Shown here piece by piece: positions 48,805-64,000 of a stretch of 64,000 nucleotides of DNA. The notes under the pieces are model-generated. The model ran no database searches. It saw nothing but the letters and a program-made list of their open reading frames with translations, and had not been told where the DNA came from. The stretch's first letter is position 1. The number at the start of each line of letters is the position of its first letter. Both the position numbers and the translations under genes were made by a program. This stretch comes from Chelativorans sp. YIM 93263 (lineage in GTDB: Bacteria; Pseudomonadota; Alphaproteobacteria; Rhizobiales; Rhizobiaceae). The stretch is from NCBI RefSeq assembly GCF_028767125.1, contig NZ_JAKCWP010000012.1, positions 21,627 through 85,626 of the forward strand. The letters run 5' to 3'.

Positions 48805-51800
48805 TTAGTGCACGGGAGCGGCATCCGGAACGACAGGACCTTTGATGTGTTCGCCTGTGTGCCGTTGGAGAGGGCCGACGCCATCTTCCTTTTCCTTGCT
48901 CGCGGTACCGATGCGGATGCGGAAGAACAGCGCGTAGAACACCGGCACGGCGATGAGGGTGAGCAGGGTGGCGAAGGCGAGACCGCCCATGATGGTCACC
49001 GCCATGGAAGCGAAGAAGGCGTCGGACAGAAGCGGGATCATGCCGAGCACAGTGGTGACGGCGGCCAGAAAGACGGGCCGCAGGCGGCTGACGCTGCCAT
49101 TCACCACGGCCGCCTCGGGCGCGATACCCGAGGCGATCTGCGCATCGATCTCGTCGACCAGAACGATGCCGTTCTTCATCAGCATGCCTGACAGGCTCAA
49201 AAGGCCCAGCAGCGCGGTGAAGCTGAACGGCAAACCGGTGAACAGGAGGCCGGCGACCACGCCGCACACGGCCATGGGAACCACGAGCCAGATGATCAGC
49301 GGCTGGCGGATCTTGCCGAACAGCAGGACGGAGATAACCAACATGACGAGGAAGCTGAGCGGCAGCTGTCTGCCCAGCGACTCCTGCGCATCGCGCGAAT
49401 TCTCGTATTCTCCGCCCCATTCGAGTTGGTAGCCAGGTGGCAAGGACATAGCCTCGATCGATGTGCGGACGCTGTTCAGAGCATCCGTCGGCGTCAGGTC
49501 GGCTATCGGCTCGGCCTGCACCGTGAGCGTGCGCTCCCGGTTGCGGCGGCGGATCAGCACCTCCTGAGGCTCCGTCCCGAAGCTGCTGACGACTTGGGTG
49601 ATCGGCACGTAGGCATTCTCGCCCGAGCTCCACACGAGCCGGTCTTGCAGGCGCCCCACATCGAGCCGCTCCTCGGCCGGCGGGCGCGCCACGATGGGGA
49701 TCGCCCGGTCGCTCTCACGATAGGTGCCGGCCTGGACGCCGGTTGTGGCGAAGGCGAGCGTCTCGGCCACATCGGTACGGCTGATGCCGGAAATGCGCGC
49801 GCGCTCCTCGTTGATCTCGGGCGCGATGACAAGTTCGCGCTGACGCCAATTGTGACGGATGTCCGTGAGCGTGCCGCTGTTGTGCATGAGAGCGATGGCT
49901 TCGTCGGCGAGGCGGCGCAGCACGGCCGGGTCGTTGCCCGAGAAACGCGCTTCCACCTTAGCTCCGCCGCCGGGGCCGAAGATCAACCGCTCTGTGCGGA
50001 TCTCGGCATTTGGGTACCGCTGTCCCAGTTCCTCGCGCAACTCGGCAGCCAGCGCGTCGATCTGGCTGCGATCCTCCATCTCTACGATGAACTGGCCATA
50101 GGCCGTATTGGGCTGCTCGGGAGCATAGGTGAGCATGAAGCGGCTGGCGCCGCGGCCGATGAAGGTGGCAACGGCCGTCACACCGGCCTTGTCCTTGATG
50201 ATCTCCTCGATATCGCCCATGTCGCGCGCCGTGGCGCGGATGTCGGAGCCCTGCGGCAGGATGTAGTTGACGTAGAAGAGCGGCGTGTTGGAATCGGGAA
50301 AGAACTGCTGCTTCACCAGGCCGAAACCGTAGAAGGAAGCGCCTGTCAGAAGGATGAGCACGATAACAGTGAGTCCGCGCAGGCGCAGGGCCCCGCGCAG
50401 GAAAGCGCGGTAGGTGCCGTAGATCGGGCCGCGATAGGGGTCGTTGTCGGCCGAGCCCGCTGCGGTCTTCAACAGGTAGTTACCGAACAGAGGCGTCACC
50501 GTTATGGCGAGCACCCAACTCAAGAGCAGCGATATGCCGATGACGGCAAAGAGCGAGAAGAGGAACTCGCCCGTCGCGTCCGGCGAGAGGCCGATGCCGG
50601 CAAAGGCCATGATGCCGATGACGGTGGCGCCCAGAAGCGGGATCTGCGTGCGCCGGGCCGCGTCGTCAGCGGCCGTCTCGGCGTTCATGCCTCTCTGCAT
50701 GTTGATGAGCATGCCTTCGGCAATCACGATGGCGTTGTCGACCAGCATGCCCATGGCAATGATGAGCGCGCCAAGAGAGATGCGCTCCATTTCGATGCCG
50801 AAGACGGCCATGAAGAACACTGTGCCGAGCACCGTCAGAAGCAGCGTGACGCCGACGACGATGCCGACGCGCCAGCCCATGAAGATGCACAGCACGCCAA
50901 TGACGATGGCGACCGACATGGCCAGGTTTACCATGAAATCGTTGATCGCCTGGTCCACCACCACATGCTGCTGGTAGATAGGATTGATCTCGACACCAAG
51001 CGGAATGCGCGAGGAAAGGTCGGCGAGCTTTGCATCCACGCCCTGGCCAACCTCCACGATGTTGGCGTCGGCCACGCCGGCGATGGCAAGTGTGAAGGCC
51101 TCCTGGCCGTTGAAGCGGATCAGTTCGTCCGGCACTTCGGTGGGCGCACGGACGACTTTGGCCACGTCGAGCAGGCTGATCTGCTCGGTCGTGCCGGGCC
51201 GGCCGACCCTGAGTGCCTCGATCGCCGCCACCGAATCGAAGGAGGGCTGCATGGAGATGCGTACGTGACGGTCGCCGATCCGGACCGCGCCGGCATTCTC
51301 CACCGCATTTTCGCTCTGGATGGTGGAAAGCACCTGCGAGATGGGGATGCCGAAACGGGCAAGGCGCTCGTTGGAAATCTCGATATAGATGGTTTCGGTC
51401 GGCTCGCCGGCGGTCGTTACCTTCGCCACATTTGGCACAGTCAGAAGCTCGCGGCGCAGGAAGGTGGCGACCTCGCGCTTGTCGGCGTCGGAAAAACCCG
51501 GTGCGGTGACGGCGTAGAAAAGGCCGAAAACATCGCCGAAGTCGTCATTGACAGTTGAGGGGCCGGCACCGTCCGGCAGTAAGCTCTGGGCATCGTTGAT
51601 CTTGCGCCTGAGCTCGTCCCATATCTGCGGGATTTCGGAGCCGTCGTAGGTCGACTTTATCTCCACCTCGAGCTGGGAGGTGCCGGGCGTCGATTTCGAG
51701 GTCACGAAATCGAGCTGCGGCATCTGCTGGACGGCCGACTCGAGAGCCTCGGTGACCTCCTGCTCGACCTCCTCGGCCGTGGCGCCGGGGTAAGGCGTGA

Positions 51801-51942
51801 CGATGACAGCCTGCTTGATGGTGAAGGCGGGGTCCTCCAAGCGGCCGACGCTGCTCAGGCCCCAGAGCCCGCCCAAAAGGCAGAGGAGAACGATCATCCA
51901 GGTATAGATCGGGCGTGCGATCGCGAGACGCGCAATGTTCAT
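48805..51942 (-). CDS. RND efflux transporter, inner-membrane permease (AcrB/MexB-like)
   Basis: 1045 residues, full-length hydrophobic/amphiphilic efflux RND pump with twelve membrane helices and two large periplasmic loops. The N-terminus ARPIYTWMIVLLCLLGG is membrane helix 1; helix 4 carries the proton-relay Asp pair region (GMLVDNAIVIAEG). It forms a tripartite pump with the adaptor encoded 46 bases upstream; no outer-membrane channel gene is present here. The operon begins with tetR. A polar C-terminal tail of about 30 residues follows the last helix. Confidence 0.93.
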   Translation of the reverse strand: MNIARLAIARPIYTWMIVLLCLLGGLWGLSSVGRLEDPAFTIKQAVIVTPYPGATAEEVEQEVTEALESAVQQMPQLDFVTSKSTPGTSQLEVEIKSTYDGSEIPQIWDELRRKINDAQSLLPDGAGPSTVNDDFGDVFGLFYAVTAPGFSDADKREVATFLRRELLTVPNVAKVTTAGEPTETIYIEISNERLARFGIPISQVLSTIQSENAVENAGAVRIGDRHVRISMQPSFDSVAAIEALRVGRPGTTEQISLLDVAKVVRAPTEVPDELIRFNGQEAFTLAIAGVADANIVEVGQGVDAKLADLSSRIPLGVEINPIYQQHVVVDQAINDFMVNLAMSVAIVIGVLCIFMGWRVGIVVGVTLLLTVLGTVFFMAVFGIEMERISLGALIIAMGMLVDNAIVIAEGMLINMQRGMNAETAADDAARRTQIPLLGATVIGIMAFAGIGLSPDATGEFLFSLFAVIGISLLLSWVLAITVTPLFGNYLLKTAAGSADNDPYRGPIYGTYRAFLRGALRLRGLTVIVLILLTGASFYGFGLVKQQFFPDSNTPLFYVNYILPQGSDIRATARDMGDIEEIIKDKAGVTAVATFIGRGASRFMLTYAPEQPNTAYGQFIVEMEDRSQIDALAAELREELGQRYPNAEIRTERLIFGPGGGAKVEARFSGNDPAVLRRLADEAIALMHNSGTLTDIRHNWRQRELVIAPEINEERARISGISRTDVAETLAFATTGVQAGTYRESDRAIPIVARPPAEERLDVGRLQDRLVWSSGENAYVPITQVVSSFGTEPQEVLIRRRNRERTLTVQAEPIADLTPTDALNSVRTSIEAMSLPPGYQLEWGGEYENSRDAQESLGRQLPLSFLVMLVISVLLFGKIRQPLIIWLVVPMAVCGVVAGLLFTGLPFSFTALLGLLSLSGMLMKNGIVLVDEIDAQIASGIAPEAAVVNGSVSRLRPVFLAAVTTVLGMIPLLSDAFFASMAVTIMGGLAFATLLTLIAVPVFYALFFRIRIGTASKEKEDGVGPLQRHTGEHIKGPVVPDAAPVH

Positions 51943-51988
51943 GGCGTGAAACTTTCAATAATATGAAAGGTTTAAACGATACCGGCGG

Positions 51989-53047
51989 TCAGAAAGCGTC
52001 CATCGGACGCACGATCATGCCTTCGCGCAGAAGCTGTCCGCCGGCGGCCACAATTTTGTCGCCGAGATTGAGGCCCGAAAGCACCGGCACCCGGTCGCTG
52101 GAGAGCATGCCGATTTCGACGTTGCGCAGGCTGACGGCACCGGTCTCGTCATCATAGACCCAGACCCGGAACCCGCCATCGGCACTGGTGTCGACTGCCC
52201 CGATCGGCACCGAATAGGCCTCCTCAGGTCGCGGCGCCACGCGTTTGACAGCGACGGAGACGGTCATGCCGGGCAATAGATTAATGTCAGCAGGCGGCGC
52301 CATGCCGAAAGTCACCTCATAGGTCTGAGCGACACTGTCGGCCTCGGTATTGTGCTCGCGATATTCGAGCGGATAGCGCTTGTCCGTCCCCGGGATCGCC
52401 GCCTCGGCTTGGATAAGTTCGGGGTCGCCGGCCAACCGGAGGACGTCTTCCGGCACGGAGATCTTGACCCGGAATTCACTGATATTTTGGATACGCAGGA
52501 CCTGCTGGCCGGGCTGCACGTTCGTATAAGCGTCGGTCAGGCGGCGGGTGATCAGCGCGTCGAAGGGGGCCTTGATTGTAGTGTCGGAAAGGTCGCGCTC
52601 GGCATTCTCGACCGCCACCTCCTTCAGATTATGGTCGGTTTTCGACTGGTCGAAAACGGCGCGCGAGATGGAACTCGTGGCGAGTAGCTTTTCCTTGCGC
52701 TCGAAATCGGACTTGGCCAGTTCGGCCGAGAGCTGTGCCTGGCGCAGGGCAAGTTCATAGTCAGCCGGGTCGAGGGCGGCAAGGAGAGCGCCCTTCTTGA
52801 CCGTCGCGCCTTCGCTGACCGGCAGGTCGATCAACTCGCCGCCGACGCGGAAAGATACGTCGACCGTGCTGACGGGTGCCAGCCGGCCGACGAAATTGCG
52901 CGTGCCCACAGCCGTGGACTGCGAGACCGGCTCGATCGCCACGGTCTGGACCTGGGGTTCCGCGGCTTTGTTGGCCTCGCTTTCCGAGCAAGCAGCAAGA
53001 AGAAGGGCAGTCAGCGCGAGCGCGCCGGAGCGATAGAATACGGACAT
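51989..53047 (-). CDS. RND efflux periplasmic adaptor (membrane fusion lipoprotein)
   Basis: 352 residues. Lipobox LLAAC at about residue 19 predicts a lipid anchor. Order of domains: barrel-sandwich/lipoyl (VSEGATVKKGALLAALDP), a coiled coil (about 90-140), the second lipoyl half (STIKAPFDA-like), beta-barrel and membrane-proximal domain (SGLNLGDKIVAAGG). It bridges the RND pump to an outer-membrane channel. It lies between tetR and the pump gene, co-directional. Confidence 0.92.
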   Translation of the reverse strand: MSVFYRSGALALTALLLAACSESEANKAAEPQVQTVAIEPVSQSTAVGTRNFVGRLAPVSTVDVSFRVGGELIDLPVSEGATVKKGALLAALDPADYELALRQAQLSAELAKSDFERKEKLLATSSISRAVFDQSKTDHNLKEVAVENAERDLSDTTIKAPFDALITRRLTDAYTNVQPGQQVLRIQNISEFRVKISVPEDVLRLAGDPELIQAEAAIPGTDKRYPLEYREHNTEADSVAQTYEVTFGMAPPADINLLPGMTVSVAVKRVAPRPEEAYSVPIGAVDTSADGGFRVWVYDDETGAVSLRNVEIGMLSSDRVPVLSGLNLGDKIVAAGGQLLREGMIVRPMDAF

Positions 53048-53057
53048 GGAACCTATC

Positions 53058-53642
53058 CTATTTACAGGCGGTTGCAGCGAGTTCGTCGAGTTTCTGGAGA
53101 AGTTCGGCCCGTTTTTCGGGCGGGAAGATGCCGATATCCATTAGCGCATGGTACATGAGACCGTCGGCTGCGGCCCATAAGAGAGCGGCCATGTCGCGAT
53201 CCGCGCACTCCTCCCGAACCTGCTCCCACCGCCTCGCGAGTTCAGCATGTAGGGGGGCAAGCATGTCCGGGTCTTCCGCCGCTACGGCCAGGATGGCCCT
53301 GCTGAGCGCCGGATCGAGACACTCCTTGTTCGCCGTTGTTTTGATGATGGCCCTCAGCGTGGGGTGGGGGCCGCCGGCAAACTCCTCGCGATAGGCATCG
53401 AGTTGCGGCATTTTGTTCTGCAGCATCCGATTGAGCATGCCCTTGAGCAGGCATTCTTTGTTGGGGAAATTGTAGAGCACGCCGCCCTTGCTGAAGCCCG
53501 CTTCGCGTGCCACGCCGTCGATTGTCAGATTACCGGCACCGTCGCGCTCCACGATGCGCTGGGCGGCATCGAGGATCTCGTCGCGGGACTTCGAGGCGCG
53601 TCGGTCTGCCCGCGCCGTCATGTTGGTCGTTTCGTTCGTCAC
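53058..53642 (-). CDS. TetR/AcrR family repressor of the efflux operon
   Basis: About 194 residues. The N-terminal HTH reads SRDEILDAAQRIVERDG, then LTIDGVAREAGFSKGGVLYNFPNKECLL, the standard TetR motif. The C-terminal ligand domain includes MYHALMDIGIFPPEKRAELL. The GTG at 53642 with AGAAGGG in front is preferred; ATG 53675 adds 11 residues but has no ribosome binding site. The first gene of tetR-adaptor-pump, probably controlling it through the double operator at 53798-53834. Confidence 0.9.
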   Translation of the reverse strand: MTNETTNMTARADRRASKSRDEILDAAQRIVERDGAGNLTIDGVAREAGFSKGGVLYNFPNKECLLKGMLNRMLQNKMPQLDAYREEFAGGPHPTLRAIIKTTANKECLDPALSRAILAVAAEDPDMLAPLHAELARRWEQVREECADRDMAALLWAAADGLMYHALMDIGIFPPEKRAELLQKLDELAATACK

Positions 53643-53797
53643 TGCCGTGTGCCCTTCTGCAGCACCTGCTTGCATAGCGTTTGGATGGCGGTCCTATTCG
53701 TGTCGCGCCTCCAAGTGAAAGAATCGGGAATGCGGAACCGTGCCCGCATTCCCGAACGGCGACGCCTTGGGAGGTCGTTGCATCGCTCTGTAGCTTA

Positions 53798-54188: not shown

Positions 54189-55190
54189 TCAATCGAGCGT
54201 CAGGACAATCTTCCCGATATGCGCATTGCTCTCCATGAGCGCATGCGCCTGAGCGACATCGGCAAGCGGATAGCTTTTGTGGATCAAGGGCCGGCATTTT
54301 CCTTCGGCAAGTAGCGGCCAGACCTTTTCCTCCAGTTGCATCGCAATCTGAGCCTTGGCCTCGACCGGTTGGGCACGCAAGGTCGATCCGGTATGCGTGA
54401 GCCGCTTGAGCATCAGGCGCATATAATCCACCTCGACACGTGAACCCTGCAGGAAGGCAATGTTGACGATGCGGCCATCGACTGCCGCAGCCTGATAGTT
54501 CTTTGCGATATAGGGACCGCCTACCATATCGAGAATGACATCGGCGCCGCGGTTTCCCGTCACGTCCTTGACGACGGCGACCCAGTCTTCCTCGCGATAG
54601 TTGATGGCCTTGTCGGCGCCCAGTCGCCGGCAAGCCTCGCATTTCTCGTCCGAGCCGGCGGTGACGATAACCGTGGCGCCGAGTGCCTTGCCCAGCATGA
54701 TCGCTGTCGTGCCGATCCCCGAACCGCCGCCGTGGACAAGCAATGTCTCGCCGGACTTGAGGGCGCCGCGCTCGAAAACGTTGTGCCACACCGTGAAGAA
54801 GGTTTCGGGAATGGCCGCTGCTTCCTTCAGCGACAGCCCGGAGGGAACCGGCAGCGCGTTCGATCCATCAACCAGCGCATATTCGGCGTAGCCGCCGCCT
54901 GGTGCCAGGGCGCAGACGAGGTCGCCGGGCTGCCAGCGCGAAACGGCGCTACCCACCGCCTGCACTGTACCAGCCACTTCCAACCCGGGGATCTCCGATG
55001 CCCCTTTCGGGGGCGGATAGAGCCCGGCGCGCTGCAGAAGGTCAGGCCTGTTCACGCCGGCCGCCGCCACGCGAACCAGGATCTCGGTGGGGCCGGGCGA
55101 GGGGACGGGCACGGTTTCCAGATGCAGAACCTCCGGCCCGCCGGCTTCGCTGATGGAGACGGCCAACATGGTTTTCGGAAGCACGGTCAA
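54189..55190 (-). CDS. NAD(P)H quinone oxidoreductase, zinc-free MDR family (PIG3/zeta-crystallin-like)
   Basis: 333 residues. The MDR fold shows AAGVNRPDLLQRAGLYPPP near the N-terminus, then VHGGGSGIGTTAIMLGKALGA for NADPH binding and YREEDW after it. No zinc ligands are visible, which fits the quinone-reductase branch. It starts 23 bases downstream of the gntR stop on the same strand, so gntR and this gene are probably one operon under operator D (55971-55987). Whether it acts in the organic-acid pathway or in stress is open. Confidence 0.88.
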   Translation of the reverse strand: MTVLPKTMLAVSISEAGGPEVLHLETVPVPSPGPTEILVRVAAAGVNRPDLLQRAGLYPPPKGASEIPGLEVAGTVQAVGSAVSRWQPGDLVCALAPGGGYAEYALVDGSNALPVPSGLSLKEAAAIPETFFTVWHNVFERGALKSGETLLVHGGGSGIGTTAIMLGKALGATVIVTAGSDEKCEACRRLGADKAINYREEDWVAVVKDVTGNRGADVILDMVGGPYIAKNYQAAAVDGRIVNIAFLQGSRVEVDYMRLMLKRLTHTGSTLRAQPVEAKAQIAMQLEEKVWPLLAEGKCRPLIHKSYPLADVAQAHALMESNAHIGKIVLTLD

Positions 55191-55213: not shown

Positions 55214-55948
55214 TTAGTCGAAAATGCCTTCGCTGTGCCTCTCGACATAACCGGCAAGGCCGAGCGTATGATCGCGGCAGAGTTGTTCGGCCAGCTCGGT
55301 CTCGCGCTTTTCAAGAGCGTCGATAATAGCCAGGTGATCCTTGATCGACTGGCTTGCCCGGTCGTCTCGGCCGATGGTGATCTTGCGAATGCCGCGCACA
55401 TGCAGCACAATATTCTCGGTCATCTGCTTCAATGTCTGCGAGCCGGTCATCTGAATCAGCGTCTGGTGGAAGCGCAGATTGGCCTCCGAATAATCGCTCA
55501 GGTGATCGCCCGGTGTATGGCCTTCATGGAACTCCTCGAAAATCTCGCGCAGCTGGTCTATTTCCTTGCGGCTCGCGTTGAGCGAAATGAGGCGGGCGGC
55601 CATGCCTTCGAGCGCTGCCCAGACCTGGATCATTTCGATGATCTCGCGCTTGGTTTTGCGCAGGACGATGATGCCGCGGCGCGGGATCGATTTGACGAAA
55701 CCCTGCTGCTCCAGCATGGCAATCGCCTCGCGAATCGGTGTCCGGCTGACATTGAGACGTTCGGCAAGCAGGCGCTCGTCGAGCCAAGTATTATCCTGCG
55801 TGCTATATATGTCCATGTCGGCGATGGCGCGCTTGAGCGTCACATAGACTCTCGCCTTGATATTCGGCTCTACCGAGACGGGCTCGAGGACAAGTTCCGG
55901 AGTGCTCTCTCCAGCTATCGGCCAGCGCGACTGGCTTCTCGTGCTCAC
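55214..55948 (-). CDS. GntR family transcriptional regulator, FCD type
   Basis: 244 residues. The winged helix (about 30-95) carries DERLLAERLNVSRTPIREAIAML, then the FCD ligand domain with metal-binding positions in its helices (for example FHQTLIQMTG and DHLAIIDAL). FCD regulators bind small carboxylic acids and usually repress their own locus. The inverted repeat TGGAAC-N5-ATACCA lies 23 bases before the ATG, and related sites are at three other promoters of this cluster. The quinone oxidoreductase gene follows. Confidence 0.92.
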   Translation of the reverse strand: MSTRSQSRWPIAGESTPELVLEPVSVEPNIKARVYVTLKRAIADMDIYSTQDNTWLDERLLAERLNVSRTPIREAIAMLEQQGFVKSIPRRGIIVLRKTKREIIEMIQVWAALEGMAARLISLNASRKEIDQLREIFEEFHEGHTPGDHLSDYSEANLRFHQTLIQMTGSQTLKQMTENIVLHVRGIRKITIGRDDRASQSIKDHLAIIDALEKRETELAEQLCRDHTLGLAGYVERHSEGIFD

Positions 55949-55970: not shown

Positions 55971-55987
55971 TGGAACCTATAATACCA
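55971..55987 (-). promoter_or_regulatory. Operator D: inverted repeat upstream of gntR
   Basis: TGGAAC-CTATA-ATACCA on the plus strand, the same repeat as at 60526, 60643 and 62580 (consensus TGGWAT-N5-ATWCCA, with one base differing). It lies 23-39 bases before the gntR start, consistent with autoregulation. Confidence 0.65.
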
Positions 55988-56069
55988 TAGACTTCAATGG
56001 AGCGCTTTCTCAACGGATGCAAGGGTCGCCTGCTGGTCATCCCGCCTTCCAGTCGGTGCAAGGTAGCTT

Positions 56070-56984
56070 CTATGCGACTTCCAGAGGGCTACTTTCCGGC
56101 TGCCCACCGAGCAGTTCCAGAAGCGTATCGCCAAGCTGGGCCGGAGTTGGCGCGATGCGGATGCCAGCCATCCGCATGGCCTCGATCTTGTCTTCCGCGC
56201 CCCCCTTGCCGCCAGCGATAATCGCACCGGCATGGCCCATGCGCCTTCCTGGAGGCGCGGTGCGGCCGGCAATAAAGCCGATTGTCGGTTTGCTCCTGCC
56301 ATGTCTCCGCTCGTCCAGCAGGAAGGCCGCGGCTTCCTCCTCTGCCTGGCCGCCGATCTCGCCGATCATGACGATCGATTCGGTTTGCGGATCGGCCAGG
56401 AACATTTCAAGGACGTCGACGAATTCGGTGCCCTTTATTGGATCGCCGCCTATACCCACGGCCGTGGTCTGGCCAAGGCTCTTGCGCGACGTCTGAAAGA
56501 CGGCCTCATAGGTGAGCGTGCCGGAGCGTGAGACGATACCGACGGACCCCTTTCGAAAGATGGAACCCGGCATGATCCCGATCTTGCATTCACCGGCGGT
56601 AATCACACCCGGGCAGTTGGGACCGATCAGGCGCGAGTGGGATGCGTCAAGCGCCCGTTTGACCCGCTGCATGTCGAGCACGGGGATCCCCTCGGTAATG
56701 CAGACGATTAGCGGGATTTCCGCGTCAATCGCCTCGCAAATAGCATCAGCCGCGCCGAAGGGCGGCACATAAATCACCGTGGCGTCGGCGTCGGTCGCCG
56801 CGCGTGCTTCCTTCACGGTATCGAAAACGGGCAACCCGAGATGCGTTGCGCCGCCCTTGCCGGGCGAGACGCCGCCGACCATCTGCGTGCCGTATTCGAT
56901 AGCCTGCTCGGAGTGGAAGGTGGCGGTTTTTCCTGTAAATCCCTGACAGAGCAGACGGGTGTCCTTGTTCACCAGAATCGACAT
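56070..56984 (-). CDS. sucD: Succinyl-CoA synthetase alpha subunit (SucD-type)
   Basis: 304 residues. CoA-binding [16 protein letters not shown] at the N-terminus, GPNCPGV, and the active-site His251 in MGHAGAI that is phosphorylated during catalysis. It makes or breaks an acyl-CoA with NTP. A sequence of this type is usually in the mdh-sucAB operon; here it sits with a GntR regulator and a second CoA ligase, so this copy may act on another dicarboxylate. The ATG shares one base with the sucC stop (TGATG). Confidence 0.92.
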
Positions 56985-58183
56985 CAGTTTCCTCCCTTGG
57001 CCGCAGCAACGATTTTTCGCGCGGCATCGTCAAGATCGTCGGCGGCAATCACGTTCAGCCCCGACTCCTCGATTATCTTTTTGCCTTCGAGGACATTCGT
57101 GCCTTCGAGCCGCACCACCAGCGGAACCTCGAGGCCCACTTCCCTGACAGCGCTTACCACGCCCTCGGCGATCACATCGCATCGCATGATGCCGCCGAAG
57201 ATATTGATCAGAATGCCTTTTACATTCGAGTCGCTGGTGATGATCTTGAAGGCTGCCGCCACCTTCTCCGCTGTAGCGCCGCCACCGACGTCGAGAAAAT
57301 TCGCCGGCTCGCCGCCATGATGCTTGATGATATCCATTGTTGCCATGGCAAGGCCGGCGCCGTTGACCATGCAGCCGATATCGCCATCGAGCGCGATATA
57401 GGAAAGATCGTAGCGGGAGGCGGCGAGTTCCTTGGCATCCTCCTCTGTCTCGTCGCGCAGGTTGGCGAGTTCAGGCCGCCGCTCCAATGCATTGGAATCG
57501 AAGCCGACCTTCGCATCGAGGCAGACAAGCCGCCCCTCATTGGTCAACACCAGAGGGTTGATCTCCAGCATCTCCATGTCGGTGGCGGTGAAGGCCGCGT
57601 AAAGCTGCTGGGCCAAAATACCCGCCTGCTTTGCGAGATCGCCCTGAAGTCCGAGCGCCTTCGCAACCAGACGGCCGTGATAAGGCATGAAGCCGGTGGC
57701 CGGATCGACAGTCAGTGTAATCACTTTTTCCGGCGTGTCGGCGGCAACGGTCTCGATGTCCATGCCGCCCTCGGTGGAGACGACGAACGCAACGCGGCTC
57801 GTGGAACGGTCAATCAGGAGCGAGATGTAAAATTCACTTTCGATCCGTGAGCCGTTCTCCACGTAGAGGCGATTGACCTCCTTGCCGTCCGGTCCCGTCT
57901 GCACGGTGACTAGTGTGTTGCCCAGCATTTCTACGGCATGCGCGCGTACTTCGGCGGTTGTTTCGGCAAGTCGCACGCCGCCTTTGGCGTCAGCGCCGAG
58001 CTCCTTGAACTTGCCCTTGCCGCGCCCGCCTGCGTGAATTTGCGATTTAACAACGAAAACCGGACCTTCGAGCCCGGCGGCCACTCCCACCGCCTCCTCG
58101 GCGTCCATTGCCGGCGCGCCATTGGGCACCGGGACGCCGAAGCTCTTCAGCACGGACTTCGCCTGATACTCATGAATATGCAT
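56984..58183 (-). CDS. sucC: Succinyl-CoA synthetase beta subunit (SucC-type)
   Basis: 399 residues, ATP-grasp: starts MHIHEYQAK, then [13 protein letters not shown] for nucleotide binding, INPLV, and the C-terminal FLDVGGGA and [10 protein letters not shown]. The FGGIMRCD form is the succinate type rather than the malate type (FAGINRCD). The ATG at 58183 has GGAGAGG in front. It is co-transcribed with sucD; the upstream acyl-CoA ligase is separated by a 112-base gap with a large hairpin (58223-58286). Confidence 0.92.
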
Positions 58184-58222
58184 CGAGATGTTACCTCTCC
58201 ATAACACCGGAAGAGTCCGGAG

Positions 58223-58286
58223 GCCGGGTTCTGGCCCAGTTGTGGCCTGGCCCGGGAGATCGCCCGGGAACTGGCCGGAACCCGGC
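58223..58286 (-). repeat. Large intercistronic hairpin between the acyl-CoA ligase and sucC
   Basis: The arms GCCGGGTTCTGGCC-AGTT and its near-perfect complement pair over about 18 bp, with one mismatch and one bulge, and an inner CCCGGG-AGATCG-CCCGGG hairpin sits in the loop. It lies wholly within the gap 58184-58295. No T run follows, so it is not a typical terminator; mRNA stability or a partial stop between the genes is more likely. Confidence 0.65.
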
Positions 58287-58295
58287 TTGGGATGA

Positions 58296-60422
58296 TCACA
58301 GAAGGCCTGCGCCGCGCGCCCATTTGTATTTGGCGCCCAGGACCTCGACCGGCAGTTCGGTCGAATAGGCGTAGGCCGGGATACCGTGCTGGTAGAGATA
58401 CTCCGCAGCTTCCTCCACCTCGACATCGCCGGCCAGGGATGCGACCATCGGCTTTTCAATGCCCTTCGCCGCCATCTCCTCCTTTACTTCGACCATCAGC
58501 TTGGCAAAGACCATGGGTGGGGTGACGATGGTATGCCAGTAGCCCAGGATCAGCGCATGAATGCGGTCGTCCTCGAGACCGAGCTTGACCGTGTTCTTAT
58601 ACGTCTGGGGCGGCTCGCCACCGGTGATGTCGACCGGATTTCCAGCCGCGCCGAAAGGCGGGATGAACTTGCGGAAAGCCGCGTCAAGGTCGTCCGGCAT
58701 CGACATCAGGTCCAGCCCGTTATCGACGCAGGCATCCGACAGGAGCACGCCGGAACCGCCCGCCCCGGTGATGATGACGACGTTTTCGCCCTTCGGCGTC
58801 GGCAGAACGGGAACGCCACGGGCGAATTCCAGAAGCTGACGAAGGGACCGGGCACGGATGACGCCGCACTGCTTGAAGACATCCTCGTAGATCTTGTCGT
58901 CGCCGGCGAGCGCACCGGTGTGAGAGGATGCGGCCTTGGCGCCGGCGGAGGTGCGGCCCGCCTTGAGCACGACCACGGGCTTGGTCTTCGAGACGCGCTT
59001 TGCGACTTCCGCGAAGGCGCGCCCGTCCTTCAAATCCTCGCAATGCTGGGCGATGATTTTCGTATTGTCGTCCTGCTCGAAGAAGGCAAGCAGGTCGTCC
59101 TCGTCAATATCCGACTTGTTGCCGAGGCCGACAATGGCCGACACGCCCATCTGGGCCGAGCGGGAGAAGCCGATAATGGCCATGCCGATCCCGCCAGACT
59201 GAGAGGAGAGGGCGGCAGAGCCCTTCACGTCATAGGCGGTGCAGAAGGTGGCGCAGAGGTTCTCCGGCGTATAATAGAAGCCGTAGATGTTCGGCCCCAT
59301 CATTCGGATGTTGTACTTGCGGCCGATTTTGACGATCTCATCCTGCAGTTCCGGGGCGCCGGCTTCCGCGAAGCCGGAGGGGATGAGAACCGCACCCGGG
59401 ATGCCCTTCTCGCCGCAGTCGGTTAGCGCATTGGCAACCAGCTTGGCGGGGATAGCAAATATCGCGGTATCGATCTCACCCGGCACGTCCTTGACGCTGC
59501 GATAGACTTTGTGGCCCAGAATTTCCTCGGCTTTGGGGTGGATCGGGTAGATCTGTCCCTTGTAACCTCCGTTGATGAGGTTCTTCATGACCGAGTTGCC
59601 GATCTTGCCGTCCTCGGCAGAGGCGCCGATCACTGCCACGGCCTTGGGTCGCATGATGCGGTTCATCGCCTCAACGATCTCGTCCTGGCTCGGGCGATGA
59701 CGGGGCTCGGGCTGATCGTAATCGACTACAATGCGCACGTCAGCGGCTATCGCGCCGTCTTCGGTGGCAAAGACCGGGTTGAGGTCGAGTTCGGAAATCT
59801 CCGGATAGTCGTTTACGAGTTCGGAAACGCGGACGATCATGTCGGCAAGCGCCTCACGATTGACCGGGTCACCTCCGCGAACGCCCTTAAGCATCTCGGC
59901 AGCCTGAATGCTGTCGAGCATGGATAGCGCCTCGCTCTTTGTCACCGGCGCGAGGCGGAAGGTGACGTCCTTCAGGACTTCCACGAGAATGCCGCCGAGT
60001 CCGAAGGCGACCAGCTTGCCAAAGCTGCCGTCGGTGACGGCGCCGATGATGACCTCTTGGCCACCGGTGAGCATTTGCTGCACCTGAACGCCGTCTATCT
60101 TGGCATCGGACTTGTAGGAGCGGGCGTTGGCGACGATCTTGTCGTAGTTTTCCCGCGCCTCTTCGGCGGAGTTGACTCCCACGACGACCCCGCCGGCTTC
60201 CGTCTTGTGCAGGATATCGGGGGAGACGATCTTCATCACCACCGGAAAGCCGATGTCGGAGGCGAGCTTCGCTGCTTCATCGGCATTTGCGGCCAGCCCT
60301 TCCTTGGGAACAGTGATCCCGTAGGCATCGCACAGCATCTTGCCTTCGGGAGCCGTGAGCGCTTGGCGGCCCTCTGTTCGCACCGTTTCCAGAACGTTAC
60401 GGACGACGGTTTTGTCGAGCAT
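58296..60422 (-). CDS. ADP-forming acetate/acyl-CoA ligase family protein (ATP-grasp first, CoA-binding domain second)
   Basis: 708 residues. The ATP-grasp (beta) domain is N-terminal (about 1-230; [19 protein letters not shown]). The CoA-binding Rossmann domain follows (about 255-; [15 protein letters not shown]), then the ligase domain with the phospho-accepting His501 in SSHTGAL. This beta-alpha order is a rearrangement of the separate-subunit enzyme. It forms an acyl-CoA with ATP or the reverse; substrates of the family include acetate, propionate, aryl acids and sulfoacetate. The ATG at 60422 has AAGGAGGAGGAGG. It is the first gene of the run to sucC-sucD. Confidence 0.9.
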
Positions 60423-60525
60423 GATCCTCCTCCTCCTTGGGTGGGCGCCTACGTCTCCTCTGACGCGGCGGAATTGGCATAAGCCTGCAGGGCCGACAGC
60501 CCGAAGCCGCCATTGTGCAGAACTC

Positions 60526-60559
60526 TGGTATTTTGTATTCCACAAGCGGGAGCTGTCAA
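60526..60559 (-). promoter_or_regulatory. Operator A (60526-60542) with promoter of the acyl-CoA ligase operon
   Basis: TGGTAT-TTTGT-ATTCCA at 60526-60542. On the minus strand TTGACA (-35, 60559-60554) is followed after 16 bases by TACAAA (-10), which overlaps this repeat. Repression of the acyl-CoA ligase-sucC-sucD operon by the GntR protein is predicted. Confidence 0.65.
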
Positions 60560-60624
60560 CCGGAAACTTGCTTGCAAGAATTGGCTGATGAAGGGTGCTA
60601 CTTAGCCGAATACGAAAAAACGCG

Positions 60625-60659
60625 TTGCCTGACCGTCACGATTAGAATACATTATACCA
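60625..60659 (+). promoter_or_regulatory. Promoter with operator B (60643-60659) for the transporter gene
   Basis: TTGCCT (60625-60630), 17 bases, TACATT (60648-60653) as promoter. The inverted repeat TAGAAT-ACATT-ATACCA at 60643-60659 covers the -10 box, so binding there would block it. It is the same repeat as in the divergent ligase promoter, 100 bases away. Confidence 0.65.
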
Positions 60660-60736
60660 AGATCGTGGGCAGCGAAGGAGCCATTCAGCATAGGAATAAG
60701 CATTTTACTGGAGGAGTAGGAGGAGGATTTCATCAC

Positions 60737-62143
60737 ATGAGCGACACGACATCATCATCGGATGCAAATGTATTTCCGAGAGACACCAGCGGCGTCGAAA
60801 GTACGGTGCTTCCTGGCAAGGACCGCGTCATAAATCTTGAGGCTCCGGGCACGGGGGCGAGAGATACCTGGAAAGCAATGGGCCCCGGCATTGCTGCCGC
60901 CATGACCGGCATCGGCGCCAGCCATCTCATGCACGCGCCCACGGCGGGCGCACAATACGGCTACGCCTTGCTGTGGATTATTCCCGTGGCGTATCTGTTG
61001 AAGTATTGCGCCTTTGAATTCGCCCACCGCTACACACTTGTCCGCGGCGAAAGCATCATGGAGGCTTACGAGCGTTTCGGCAAATGGCCGCTATGGTATC
61101 TGGGCTTCCAGTCCCTGGCGAACACGTTCGGCATTGCCGGCAGGGCACTGGGGTGCGCAGCATTGCTCTGGGCGGCGTTCCCGTTTCTTCCGCTGCAGGT
61201 ATGGGCGGTCCTGATCCTGGTCACCTGCGTGGGCATTCTATGGGCGGGCAAGTACGCCGCCCTCGAAAGCGCTGTGAAACTGGCAATCATCGTCTTCGCG
61301 CTTGCCTCTCTCACCGCCTTCGTCCTGCAGGCGCCGAACCCGACCGAGTATATGACGCGTCTGTTACCGACCCTTCCACCGATTGGTGCGGCGCTCCTCT
61401 TCGGCGCCATGTTCGGCTATTTCCCCACCACGGTCGAAGTCGCGCCCATGCAATCGAACTGGGCCGTCGACAAGAAAAGCGGAATGGTGAGGGTCCGAGA
61501 GCTGGAGCGGCAGGGCTATAAGGTCAACATGGCTCCGAGCTACATGCGCAACTACATGAAGCTTTTCAAGCGCGACATGAACATCAGCTATGTCATCTCA
61601 ATGGTGACTGGCATGGCGTTCCTGATCGTCGGCGCCGTGGTCCTCAATCCGATCGGGCTGGTGCCGGAAAGCCGCGAAATGGGCCTGACCATCGCCCGCA
61701 TCTACACGGATACGTTCGGAGCTTGGATCTTTCCGGTGATCATCGCCGGTGGCGTTGCGGCATTGTTCTCGACCGTCTTCACCTATTTCGACGGGCAGGC
61801 GCGCATCTTCGAGGAATGCTGCGTTCGGCTGCGGCGGAGATGGGATGATCCGCAGACGCGCCAGCTCATCTACCGCGGGTTCCAGATCCTATGGATCGTG
61901 GCTGGAACGGCGATTATCTTCGGCCTGCCGCGGCCAATCTTCGTCGTACAGGTCGCGTCTGTGCTTGCGCTCTTGTTCTCGCCGCTTCTGTTCTGGATGA
62001 ACATCAAAGCCATCAAGGACAATTTCTCCGGGCCGGATCTGGAGTTCATGCCGTCCAAGTTCATGTTCGCTTGGGCCTGGGCCGGTATGATCGGCCTGGC
62101 CGTAATCAGCTTGTATGTTCTCTATCTGCAGTTCCTTACCTGA
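60737..62143 (+). CDS. Nramp-related membrane transporter lacking the canonical metal-binding motifs
   Basis: 468 residues, about eleven membrane helices, with the start of helix 1 (MGPGIAAAM) and downstream QYGYALLW placing it in the Nramp (COG1914-like) fold. The helix 1 DPGN is replaced by GIGASH and the helix 6 MPH by FGYFPTTVEVAP, so manganese/iron transport by the known mechanism is unlikely. The ATG at 60737 follows a long GGAGG-rich site. Clustered with CoA ligases under a shared operator, it may import an organic acid or another ligand; that is inference. Confidence 0.8.
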   Translation: MSDTTSSSDANVFPRDTSGVESTVLPGKDRVINLEAPGTGARDTWKAMGPGIAAAMTGIGASHLMHAPTAGAQYGYALLWIIPVAYLLKYCAFEFAHRYTLVRGESIMEAYERFGKWPLWYLGFQSLANTFGIAGRALGCAALLWAAFPFLPLQVWAVLILVTCVGILWAGKYAALESAVKLAIIVFALASLTAFVLQAPNPTEYMTRLLPTLPPIGAALLFGAMFGYFPTTVEVAPMQSNWAVDKKSGMVRVRELERQGYKVNMAPSYMRNYMKLFKRDMNISYVISMVTGMAFLIVGAVVLNPIGLVPESREMGLTIARIYTDTFGAWIFPVIIAGGVAALFSTVFTYFDGQARIFEECCVRLRRRWDDPQTRQLIYRGFQILWIVAGTAIIFGLPRPIFVVQVASVLALLFSPLLFWMNIKAIKDNFSGPDLEFMPSKFMFAWAWAGMIGLAVISLYVLYLQFLT

Positions 62144-62171
62144 CTGTACTGATCACGCGACTCGAAACCAG

Positions 62172-62196
62172 AAAGGGCCCACGGGGCCCTTTTTTT
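62172..62196 (+). terminator. Intrinsic terminator after the transporter gene
   Basis: A 9-bp stem AAAGGGCCC / GGGCCCTTT with loop ACG, followed by a T run (62190-62196). A strong Rho-independent terminator, 28 bases after the transporter stop. Confidence 0.9.
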
Positions 62197-62562
62197 GACA
62201 AGGGCAGCACTCAAGTTCCGCGTGCTGCTCATATGAAGCCGCTCGCTCCTCGACATCCGTCTCGATAATTATCGATTGCGTGCTCTCAGCTCAGGGTGAT
62301 TCCCGCATTGTCGACAACGGGCCTGTGCTCTTCATATTGCCTCCCACATCGAGCGATAGGCGGGCGGCAGATAGAATCTCGTTCAGTTCATGCTGGCGCA
62401 CATAAGCGCGCCGAGGACCAAACAGCACTTCCTCGATGAAGCTGCATAAGCCGCTCCGAGGGCGTGCGTTTCGCTGCCCAGAGGGGGCTTAAAGATCCAG
62501 CTTTCTTGTACCGCACGACGAGAGGCGCGAGATACAATCCGGTGCTCCGGCTGAACCTTTTC
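62197..62562. other. Gap between terminator and the ketopantoate-reductase-like gene promoter
   Basis: About 365 bases with no gene I can support. Short minus-strand frames here look like decayed coding but match no family that I can name. Confidence 0.4.
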
Positions 62563-62596
62563 TTGACTCGGCACGAGATTGGAATTATGTATACCA
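62563..62596 (+). promoter_or_regulatory. Promoter with operator C (62580-62596) for the reductase gene
   Basis: TTGACT (62563-62568), 17 bases, TATGTA (62586-62591). The repeat TGGAAT-TATGT-ATACCA at 62580-62596 covers the -10 box, a typical repressor site. It is the fourth copy of the local repeat, 58 bases before the start codon. Confidence 0.7.
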
Positions 62597-62653: not shown

Positions 62654-63670
62654 ATGAAAATCTGCATTTTTGGCGCGGGCGCGATCGGCGGCTATATGGC
62701 GGTGATGCTAAAGCGCGGCGGCGCCGACGTCTCGCTAATCGCACGCGGCCCGCATCTCAAGGCTATTCAGGAGAACGGCCTCAAGCTGCTGCTCGACGGT
62801 GAGGAAATCGTCGAACGCATGCCGGCAAGCAGAACCCCGAGCGACATGGGCCCGCAGGACTATGTCATCGTTGCGCTAAAGGCACACCAAGCATGGGAAT
62901 CCGCCGCCGACATGGCTCCGCTGCTCCATGAAGGCACTTCCGTAGTGACAGCGCAGAACGGTCTGCCCTGGTGGTACTTCTATGGTCTCGGTTCGGCGTT
63001 CTCGGATATGCGGTTACAGAGCGTAGATCCGGGCAACCGGCAATGGAACCTGATCGGTCCGCAGCGCGCCATTGGGGCGACCGTCTATCCGGCCACCGAG
63101 ATCGTCGAGCCGGGCGTCATCAAGCATATCTACGGCAACCAATTCGGCCTCGGCGAGCCCGATCGCAGCGAGAGCGCGCGCGTCGCGGCGTTGGCTTCGG
63201 TGCTGGAGGCGGGCGGCTTGAAGCCGCGGTTCTACGAAGACATCCGTAACGACATCTGGATCAAATTGTGGGGCAATCTTTGCTTCAATCCGATTTCGGC
63301 GCTGACTGGCGCAACATTGGATGTGGTGGCCACGGACCCGGGCACACGGGTTCTCGCCCGCAACATGATGATCGAGGCGCAGCGCATCGCCGAACATTTC
63401 GGCGCCTCGTTCCGCGTCGATGTGGAGCGTCGTATCAACGGCGCCGCCGGTGTTGGCGCGCATCGAACGTCGATGCTGCAGGATGTCACCATTGGGCGCC
63501 CCATCGAACTTGATGCCCTTCTGTCCTCAGTTCAGGAGATGGGGCGTCTTGGCGGTTTTGAGACGCCATTCATCGATAGTGTCTTGGCGCTCGCCCAACA
63601 GATGGGGCGTGTGAAGGGGCTCTACCCGACTTTTCCGGAAGCCGAATCGGGGCAGCGGCTGGCTTCGTAA
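62654..63670 (+). CDS. Ketopantoate reductase family oxidoreductase (2-dehydropantoate 2-reductase-like)
   Basis: 338 residues. N-terminal NAD(P) motif IFGAGAIGGYMAVMLKRGG, the VALKAHQ segment near residue 75 with the catalytic lysine, and the C-terminal domain with DIWIKLWGNLCFNPISALTG. The family reduces 2-oxo-acids or oxidises hydroxy acids. It is somewhat longer than PanE of E. coli, and paralogues of this kind often act on other 2-oxo acids. The location under operator C suggests a catabolic role here rather than pantothenate synthesis. Confidence 0.85.
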   Translation: MKICIFGAGAIGGYMAVMLKRGGADVSLIARGPHLKAIQENGLKLLLDGEEIVERMPASRTPSDMGPQDYVIVALKAHQAWESAADMAPLLHEGTSVVTAQNGLPWWYFYGLGSAFSDMRLQSVDPGNRQWNLIGPQRAIGATVYPATEIVEPGVIKHIYGNQFGLGEPDRSESARVAALASVLEAGGLKPRFYEDIRNDIWIKLWGNLCFNPISALTGATLDVVATDPGTRVLARNMMIEAQRIAEHFGASFRVDVERRINGAAGVGAHRTSMLQDVTIGRPIELDALLSSVQEMGRLGGFETPFIDSVLALAQQMGRVKGLYPTFPEAESGQRLAS

Positions 63671-63776: not shown

Positions 63777-64000
63777 ATGATCAGTGCATTCGTTCCAACT
63801 GAAATCCTGAGCGGCGAACCGCGCGTGGCCGCTTCGCCGGAAACGGTGAAGCGGTTGGTTGGGCTAGGATTGGACGTGGCAGTGGAGACGGGAGCGGGGT
63901 TAGCCTCTCGTATCACCGATGCTGAGTTCGAGAGGGCGGGGGCTTCTATCGGCAAGGCTTCCGATGCCGCCAAAGCCGATGTGGTGCTGAAGGTGCGGCG
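63777..64000 (+). CDS. Start of NAD(P) transhydrogenase alpha subunit / alanine dehydrogenase family gene (partial)
   Basis: 74 complete codons are present: a beta-strand start (ISAFVPTEI), then GEPRVAASPETVKRL and VAVETGAGLASR, matching the N-terminal domain of PntA and alanine dehydrogenases. The gene runs off the window at 64000, so the choice between the two cannot be made. It follows the ketopantoate-reductase-like gene after 106 bases in the same direction. Confidence 0.75.
   Translation, partial: MISAFVPTEILSGEPRVAASPETVKRLVGLGLDVAVETGAGLASRITDAEFERAGASIGKASDAAKADVVLKVR

Follow-up and report, generated by a model that had tools for sequence, protein, structure and literature searches.

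Genes and inverted repeats of the locus

The stretch of DNA investigated in this study comprises 64,000 nucleotides of contig NZ_JAKCWP010000012.1 from Chelativorans sp. YIM 93263 (in the following termed the window) and contains, towards its end, a group of genes preceded by four copies of a short inverted repeat, for which a preliminary description had proposed the motif TGGWAT-N5-ATWCCA and control by a regulator of the GntR family. The gene of this regulator (gntR; 55214-55948, minus strand) encodes a protein of 244 residues that combines a GntR helix-turn-helix domain (Pfam 4.9e-11; 42.6 bits, cut-off 27) with an FCD ligand domain (1.4e-25; 90.6 bits, cut-off 24.3) and thus belongs to the FCD-type GntR proteins. 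It is followed on the same strand by the gene of an NAD(P)H quinone oxidoreductase of the PIG3 family (54189-55190; TIGR02824, 500.6 bits, cut-off 296.8). Also on the minus strand, an operon encodes an ADP-forming acyl-CoA ligase of 708 residues (58296-60422; Pfam Ligase_CoA_2, ATP-grasp_5 and Succ_CoA_lig), which stays under its curated cut-off in all of the NCBIfam models listed, and the SucC-like beta (56984-58186) and SucD-like alpha subunit (56070-56984) of a CoA ligase, both recognized in Pfam and NCBIfam profile searches. The plus strand carries the genes of an Nramp-like membrane protein (60737-62143; Pfam and NCBIfam Nramp) and of a member of the ApbA/PanE family (62654-63670; Pfam and NCBIfam), a candidate oxalyl-CoA reductase of the PanE2 type described in the consulted sections of PMC7486775. 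They are followed by the start of pntA (63779-64000), which encodes the alpha subunit of NAD(P) transhydrogenase and continues beyond the window, and whose product exceeds the cut-off of NF006942 (427 bits compared to 383) while remaining below that of TIGR00561 (375.5 compared to 444.4). The gene assignments of the preliminary description were correct throughout in these profile searches.

All four repeats were located, each with at most one differing base. The sites upstream of the ligase (60526-60542, TGGTATTTTGTATTCCA, 103 bp from the gene) and of the PanE-like gene (62580-62596, TGGAATTATGTATACCA, 57 bp) are exact copies of the proposed motif, and those upstream of gntR (55971-55987, TGGAACCTATAATACCA, 22 bp from the start) and of the Nramp-like gene (60643-60659, TAGAATACATTATACCA, 77 bp) contain one mismatch. 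In a promoter scan, sigma-70-like pairs overlap the gntR site (TTGAGA-18-TATGGT, with the -35-like element at 56008-56013 on the minus strand and the -10-like TATGGT reaching into the repeat) and the ligase site (TTGACA-18-CAAAAT, -35 element at 60554-60559, minus strand). No such pair was scored over the Nramp-like or PanE-like sites, so that the promoters of the preliminary description were recovered in part by the scan. The sequence TTGACT (62563-62568, plus strand) is nevertheless found 11 bases before the PanE-like site, at a position that reads TTGAC[A/T] in all seven aligned rows including the window. Together, TTGACA or TTGACT is located 7-13 bases ahead of the site in seven of eight ligase rows, which read TTGACA and include the window, and in seven of seven PanE rows.

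Distribution of the repeat in the genome and in relatives

The enrichment of the repeat in the window is evident from a comparison with 100 dinucleotide-preserving shuffles. With up to one mismatch, the window contains five matches compared to a mean of 0.11, a number that was reached in none of the shuffles; the fifth match is located at position 61094 within the Nramp-like gene. With up to two mismatches, there are seven compared to 2.81 expected, which was reached in two shuffles. Across the genome (4,246,288 bases), the exact pattern is found twice, both times in the window, in line with the expectation that it would not be frequent, and with one mismatch permitted it is found at 16 places compared to seven for a reversed control. 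However, the restriction of position 4 to A or T was too narrow: among 47 distinct sites of the regulon, after symmetrization, this position is occupied by C in 44%, T in 30%, A in 19% and G in 7% of cases. The pattern was therefore relaxed to TGGNAT-N5-ATNCCA, which is the better motif. In exact form it occurs at five places in the 4.25 Mb of the source genome and at none for the reversed control. Its exact sites in the window lie in the stretch between the ligase and Nramp-like genes and in the PanE-like promoter.

The other copies, on different contigs, place the repeat 116 bp upstream of the gene of oxalyl-CoA decarboxylase (oxc; TIGR03254, 1006.9 bits, cut-off 739.4), 50 bp upstream of a second sucCD pair (sucCD2), and between the fds formate dehydrogenase genes (214 bp) and those of a tungstate-type ABC transporter (197 bp). 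Directly behind oxc follows the gene of formyl-CoA transferase (frc; TIGR03253, 725.2 bits, cut-off 504.2), and bhcA and bhcB, both over their cut-offs, are located on its other side. The TupA component of the ABC transporter remains below its cut-off (220.1 bits compared to 400), which leaves the transported substrate uncertain; the sharing of this site (L049:4162) by formate dehydrogenase and the divergent transporter genes could mean that the metal supply of the enzyme is co-regulated. Each of the five copies adjoins genes of a single pathway. Contrary to the earlier proposal, the regulon is not confined to this locus: in the source genome it takes in oxc-frc, sucCD2 and formate dehydrogenase, all encoded on other contigs, and in relatives sites are also located before pntA and transporter genes.

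Relatives were collected in a scan for the regulator in the genome_contigs collection (84,980 species), which yielded 31 loci, and among 297 genomes of the family, where GntR matches at E<=1e-60 were found in ten. In the near loci (L016-L021, L044), which come from Nitratireductor, Mesorhizobium and Pseudaminobacter, copies of the motif again stand upstream of the ligase and of gntR, with the exception of L020, where no site directly precedes the ligase, and of L019, where the site before gntR has one mismatch even with the relaxed pattern. The nine other family genomes with GntR contain 56 exact copies, 47 of them beside genes of this set, and together with the source genome 52 of 61 copies adjoin such genes, which bears out the expectation that the sites stay tied to their orthologues in relatives retaining the regulator. 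The mapping was carried out by tblastn in stretches around most copies, with L017 serving for one contig of G226; the reference proteins were drawn from the window, from the rest of its genome and from related genomes. Two of the 47 copies (G149 C22:132264 and 132464) lie between the gene of a thiamine enzyme and oxlT with no start assigned within 450 bp, and one PanE site of the congener G090, spanning the edge of two stretches, was placed at 132 bp by means of the separate searches for the motif and for PanE.

The distances to the gene starts are stable among these genomes. The site precedes the ligase by 74-113 bp in eight genomes. In G080 the ligase is encoded downstream of tripartite transporter genes of the same orientation, and two sites are present in the promoter of these genes; in G043 the ligase lies outside the fetched stretches and was left out. 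The site precedes gntR by 17-29 bp in nine of ten genomes (with one mismatch in G000, G090 and G043, and an operator in G090, at 21 bp, identical to that of the window), with no site seen before gntR in G248. For PanE, the range is 36-187 bp in all seven orthologues of at least 80% identity, including the window, and no exact site was found on the contigs of the weaker relatives (G226 C40, G248 C1). Sites are further found 40-106 bp before sucC2 in eight genomes, before formate dehydrogenase in three, before pntA in two (420-446 bp), and at TctC or OxlT genes in seven. When the surroundings of the ligase, gntR and PanE sites are aligned without gaps (seven to eight rows each), identity reaches 96-100% in the ten core columns, compared to 64-86% in the other seven columns of the site and 30-33% in the flanks, although the core figure leans upward since rows were picked for having a site.

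The regulator also co-occurs with oxalate degradation. Oxalyl-CoA decarboxylase exceeds its cut-off in ten of the 297 genomes, eight of which also contain GntR (Fisher p = 1.5e-12, kinship ignored). In the two remaining GntR genomes, oxc is cut by a contig end (G226) or its place is taken by a different thiamine enzyme (G149), whereas the two remaining Oxc genomes (G001, G181) encode a GntR relative of 41-43% identity directly beside oxc that was missed at E<=1e-60, so that in these two a missing match at this threshold is no true absence. A single cluster on the Phyllobacterium plasmid pT1293c combines genes of PanE, a fumarylacetoacetate-hydrolase-family protein, bhcR, sucDC, frc and a thiamine enzyme with oxlT, the ligase, sucC, sucD, gntR and the quinone oxidoreductase, and contains six exact sites. 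In Skermanella rosea, gntR-oxc-frc-ligase-sucC-sucD-formate dehydrogenase form one row according to the record annotation, with no exact site in that row. Orthologues of the 708-residue ligase adjoin frc, oxc or both in relatives, including plasmids of Methylobacterium nodulans and Paracoccus alcaliphilus, where it is found near frc or oxc/frc/oxlT, and a PanE-like relative of 57% identity is part of a Cupriavidus metallidurans cluster with GntR, frc and ligase.

Several features of these clusters were observed in passing. At L131:9174-10928 (minus strand), L106:10247-11953 (minus), L138:15311-17017 (plus), and in L025, L026 and L041, a thiamine-diphosphate enzyme of 25-26% identity to oxalyl-CoA decarboxylase stands beside frc in the place of oxc. 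For the Phyllobacterium copy, the highest-scoring model is that of acetolactate synthase (PRK05858, 433 bits, cut-off 587), with 219 bits reached for oxalyl-CoA decarboxylase (cut-off 557); this protein may act on oxalyl-CoA or formyl-CoA as a non-orthologous enzyme. A second SucCD pair near a fumarylacetoacetate-hydrolase-family protein (L119:1152-4091 and relatives) is recurrent in the regulon, and in L020 the subunits of the second pair are 38% and 49% identical to those of the first. In several of the more distant relatives (L027-L040, L125, L126, L134), a TGGNATNCCA dyad is accompanied by a third half-site seven bases on (for example TGGTATACCATATGCCA in L036), a pattern that suggests a different dimer arrangement.

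A probable regulon for oxalate use

We consider it highly probable that the FCD-type GntR binds the repeat as its operator, and that this protein controls an oxalate-use regulon spread over the chromosome, most likely as a repressor that is released by oxalate or one of its derivatives. Binding of GntR to the repeat is suggested by the location of sites upstream of its own gene and by its co-occurrence with oxalyl-CoA decarboxylase, and its role as repressor by their overlap with -10 regions. The rarity of the motif and its link to orthologues support the earlier proposal of a GntR regulon. Because sites precede oxc-frc, sucCD2 and fds besides the genes of the window, the regulon can be assigned to the use of oxalate, a common product of plants and fungi for which the degrading enzymes are known. 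The preliminary description had left the metabolite unnamed; with high probability it can now be named as oxalate. An alternative reading of the regulon as one of the succinate or malate type was set aside in view of the other sites at oxc-frc and formate dehydrogenase.

Several observations weigh against this interpretation. The five exact relaxed copies compare to about 1.9 expected from base composition (61.5% GC), at least one copy is present in 250 of the 297 family genomes, and of the genus mates that have no GntR match at E<=1e-60, G167 carries six, G281 four and G227 none. Taken alone, the count of exact motifs is not striking and was rejected as evidence; the case thus rests on the position of the sites. 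Two of the four sites in the window, those of gntR and the Nramp-like gene, deviate by one base, nine of the 61 exact copies from genomes with the regulator are located elsewhere, outside the mapped set, and in L025, L026, L041, L139 and L140, whose GntR proteins are 52-56% identical, no exact site was found beside these genes, which points to a drift of the operator in distant relatives. Finally, the only independent oxalate genes are oxc, frc, PanE and OxlT, since sucCD2, fds and pntA entered the gene set because sites were found there and are thus not independent evidence.

The overlap of the sites with -10 regions might also be expected if they were part of a conserved core promoter, or if they had arisen by chance with no regulator involved. 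This we regard as extremely unlikely, as a plain -10 box requires no TGG...CCA dyad and as the ten dyad columns stand out from the remaining columns of the site and its flanks. Marginally less remote, although still very improbable, is an assignment of the operator to another regulator of the neighbourhood, such as the IclR-type BhcR, with gntR being merely a target: bhcR adjoins oxc in the source genome and IclR relatives are found in some clusters, but gntR, the ligase and the PanE-like gene reside on contig C4 and bhcR on C25, and in L022 and L024 GntR is encoded beside oxc with no bhcR match seen in the fetched stretch. The position of the sites closely upstream of gntR in nine of ten genomes is the usual sign of self-control, and TGG...CCA dyads are frequent among binding sites of the GntR family. 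Unlikely, though deserving more weight, is a response of the regulon to a different acid such as glyoxylate, malate or formate, with the oxalate genes forming only part of it. SucC shows similarity to malate-CoA ligase (PRK14046, 509 bits, below the cut-off of 604) and also to succinate-CoA ligase (PRK00696, 559 bits, above 370), and genes of formate dehydrogenase and of glyoxylate use (bhc) lie in the vicinity. Conversely, GntR recurs with Oxc and Frc, both of which act on oxalyl-CoA, and a site is found at the gene of OxlT, the oxalate/formate antiporter, in G149, G179 and Phyllobacterium.

In the proposed oxalate regulon, a GntR dimer bound to TGGNAT-N5-ATNCCA over the -10 region would block RNA polymerase in the absence of oxalate, as suggested by the position of the sites. 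Binding of oxalate, or of its products oxalyl-CoA or glyoxylate, to the FCD domain would cause release of the repressor. FCD domains generally contain a metal-carboxylate pocket, in which Asp is more usual than Asn; the residues N157, H161, H183, H205 and H227, invariant in 14 aligned GntR proteins, fit such a pocket with four His and one Asn. Oxalate would be imported by the Nramp-like protein in this organism, a role that in relatives would fall to OxlT or a tripartite transporter, and be converted to oxalyl-CoA by formyl-CoA transferase and presumably by an ATP-dependent ligase. Oxalyl-CoA would be decarboxylated to formyl-CoA, with formate being oxidized for energy, and part of it would be reduced to glyoxylate by the PanE-like protein with NADPH from PntAB. 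Glyoxylate would in turn be assimilated, probably by the beta-hydroxyaspartate cycle, whose genes are located beside oxc. Since the reduction of oxalyl-CoA frees CoA, the assimilation branch would need a net activation of oxalate, for which the ligase and both SucCD pairs are candidates. We thus regard the 708-residue protein as candidate ATP-dependent activator of oxalate. Similarly, the PanE-like protein is a candidate oxalyl-CoA reductase based on its family, its operator and published work on apbA2 of Cupriavidus necator and panE2 of Methylobacterium extorquens.

The Nramp-like protein and comparison with known systems

The role of the Nramp-like protein is less clear. In a profile alignment with solved Nramp structures, which is weak overall (7qia, 4.6e-15), Gly60 and His63 take the positions of Asp and Asn in the DPGN motif on helix 1 and Glu234 that of the Met of helix 6, so that these residues of a canonical Nramp metal transporter are absent; the three replacements are invariant in four orthologues. 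Structure prediction from the single sequence gave a model of insufficient quality (mean pLDDT 47.1, pTM 0.27). Matches to the protein were limited to two of the 297 family genomes (E<=1e-60) and, among 385 genomes of the class (E<=1e-40), to the source genome. In G268 an orthologue, 85% conserved, is encoded at the equivalent position, divergently from the ligase, and is preceded at 65 bp by a site with one mismatch. Further relatives encode OxlT or a tripartite transporter, again with sites, near the ligase or oxc.

We tentatively propose, with considerable doubt, that this protein imports oxalate or a metal-oxalate complex, as a branch of the Nramp fold that has lost the canonical metal ligands and turned to an organic acid, stands under the operator of the oxalate enzymes and fills the slot of OxlT. 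An import of divalent metal ions such as Mn or Mg to serve the pathway is similarly plausible while falling short of an even chance. The latter would agree with the Nramp assignment by both Pfam and NCBIfam and with the presence in G268 of a tripartite transporter with sites besides the Nramp-like protein. His63 and Glu234, at metal-ligand positions, could still bind metal, which is why the assignment as oxalate importer is held at low confidence. Distant plasmid proteins named Nramp equally lack DPGN, and the loss is thus not unique to the oxalate pathway. A role in metal transport is at odds with the replacement of all three residues, particularly as even the Mg2+-transporting branch of the family retains the Asp according to the consulted part of PMC8806188, and with the location of the gene in the transporter slot beside the ligase in a genome where no OxlT exceeds its cut-off (TIGR04259, best 62.3 bits compared to 335; tripartite transporters were not searched for). 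Orthologues of 72-76% identity in Skermanella mucosa and Azospirillum ramasamyi have a one-mismatch operator 59-119 bases upstream, a type of copy expected by chance about once per 33 kb, and no oxalate gene within 12 kb on either side. Near these orthologues, exact motif copies are located close to small hypothetical genes (L129:13652, L130:10332).

Binding sites of the FadR subfamily commonly follow the consensus TNGTNNNACNA, although its short spacing is no strict criterion of family membership. Like regulators of organic-acid catabolism of the FCD/FadR subfamily (LldR, GlcC, PdhR and CsiR, with weak NCBIfam matches), the GntR described here combines a winged helix with an FCD domain, would recognize a dyad over the promoter and is encoded inside its own proposed regulon. 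In contrast to them, it reached the cut-off of no NCBIfam model listed (best phnR_burk, 106.6 bits compared to 271.5), and its operators in the window, with TGG and CCA 11 bases apart, are longer than TNGTNNNACNA. In relatives this spacing was fixed by the search pattern, and distant ones also show TGGNATNCCA forms.

With the oxalate metabolism of M. extorquens and C. necator the regulon shares Oxc, Frc, a PanE-type reductase and the Fds formate dehydrogenase. According to PMC7486775, C. necator grows more slowly on oxalate when apbA2 (51% identical to panE2 of M. extorquens) is deleted, and not at all upon deletion of frc-oxc; assimilation there proceeds by the glycerate pathway, whereas here bhc genes lie beside oxc, and the term GntR does not occur in that paper. 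The yfdXWUVE genes of Escherichia coli are also of the oxc/frc type and controlled through inverted repeats, although by the acid-response two-component regulator EvgA and not by GntR, and the same paper reports no homologue of oxalyl-CoA reductase in that species (PMC3720670). While OxlT holds the transporter slot near the ligase under the same operator in some relatives, this slot is taken by the unrelated Nramp-like protein in the source genome. A literature search, with most subscription papers outside its reach, found no GntR regulator of oxalate genes. In the excerpts concerned, the GntR of PMC7176365, which matched together with oxalyl-CoA, belongs to another pathway, PMC5987411 links no GntR to oxalate genes, and CstR of M. 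extorquens is a CheY-like regulator (PMC13344952). The word regulator is absent from PMC12927642.

The control of an organic-acid pathway by an FCD-type GntR is of a known kind, and the use of an Nramp fold in this context is possibly new. In one organism, a working set of genes for oxalate can now be read from one operator, including candidates for import and, with the 708-residue ligase and two SucCD pairs, for ATP-dependent activation. GntR and its promoter would constitute a testable control circuit and a possible oxalate sensor. Bacterial use of oxalate, according to PMC12927642, feeds the oxalate-carbonate pathway of soils. Adjoining the oxalate genes in the window (48805-53675) are genes of a TetR-type regulator, an adaptor and RND efflux proteins, which appear ordinary from their translations.

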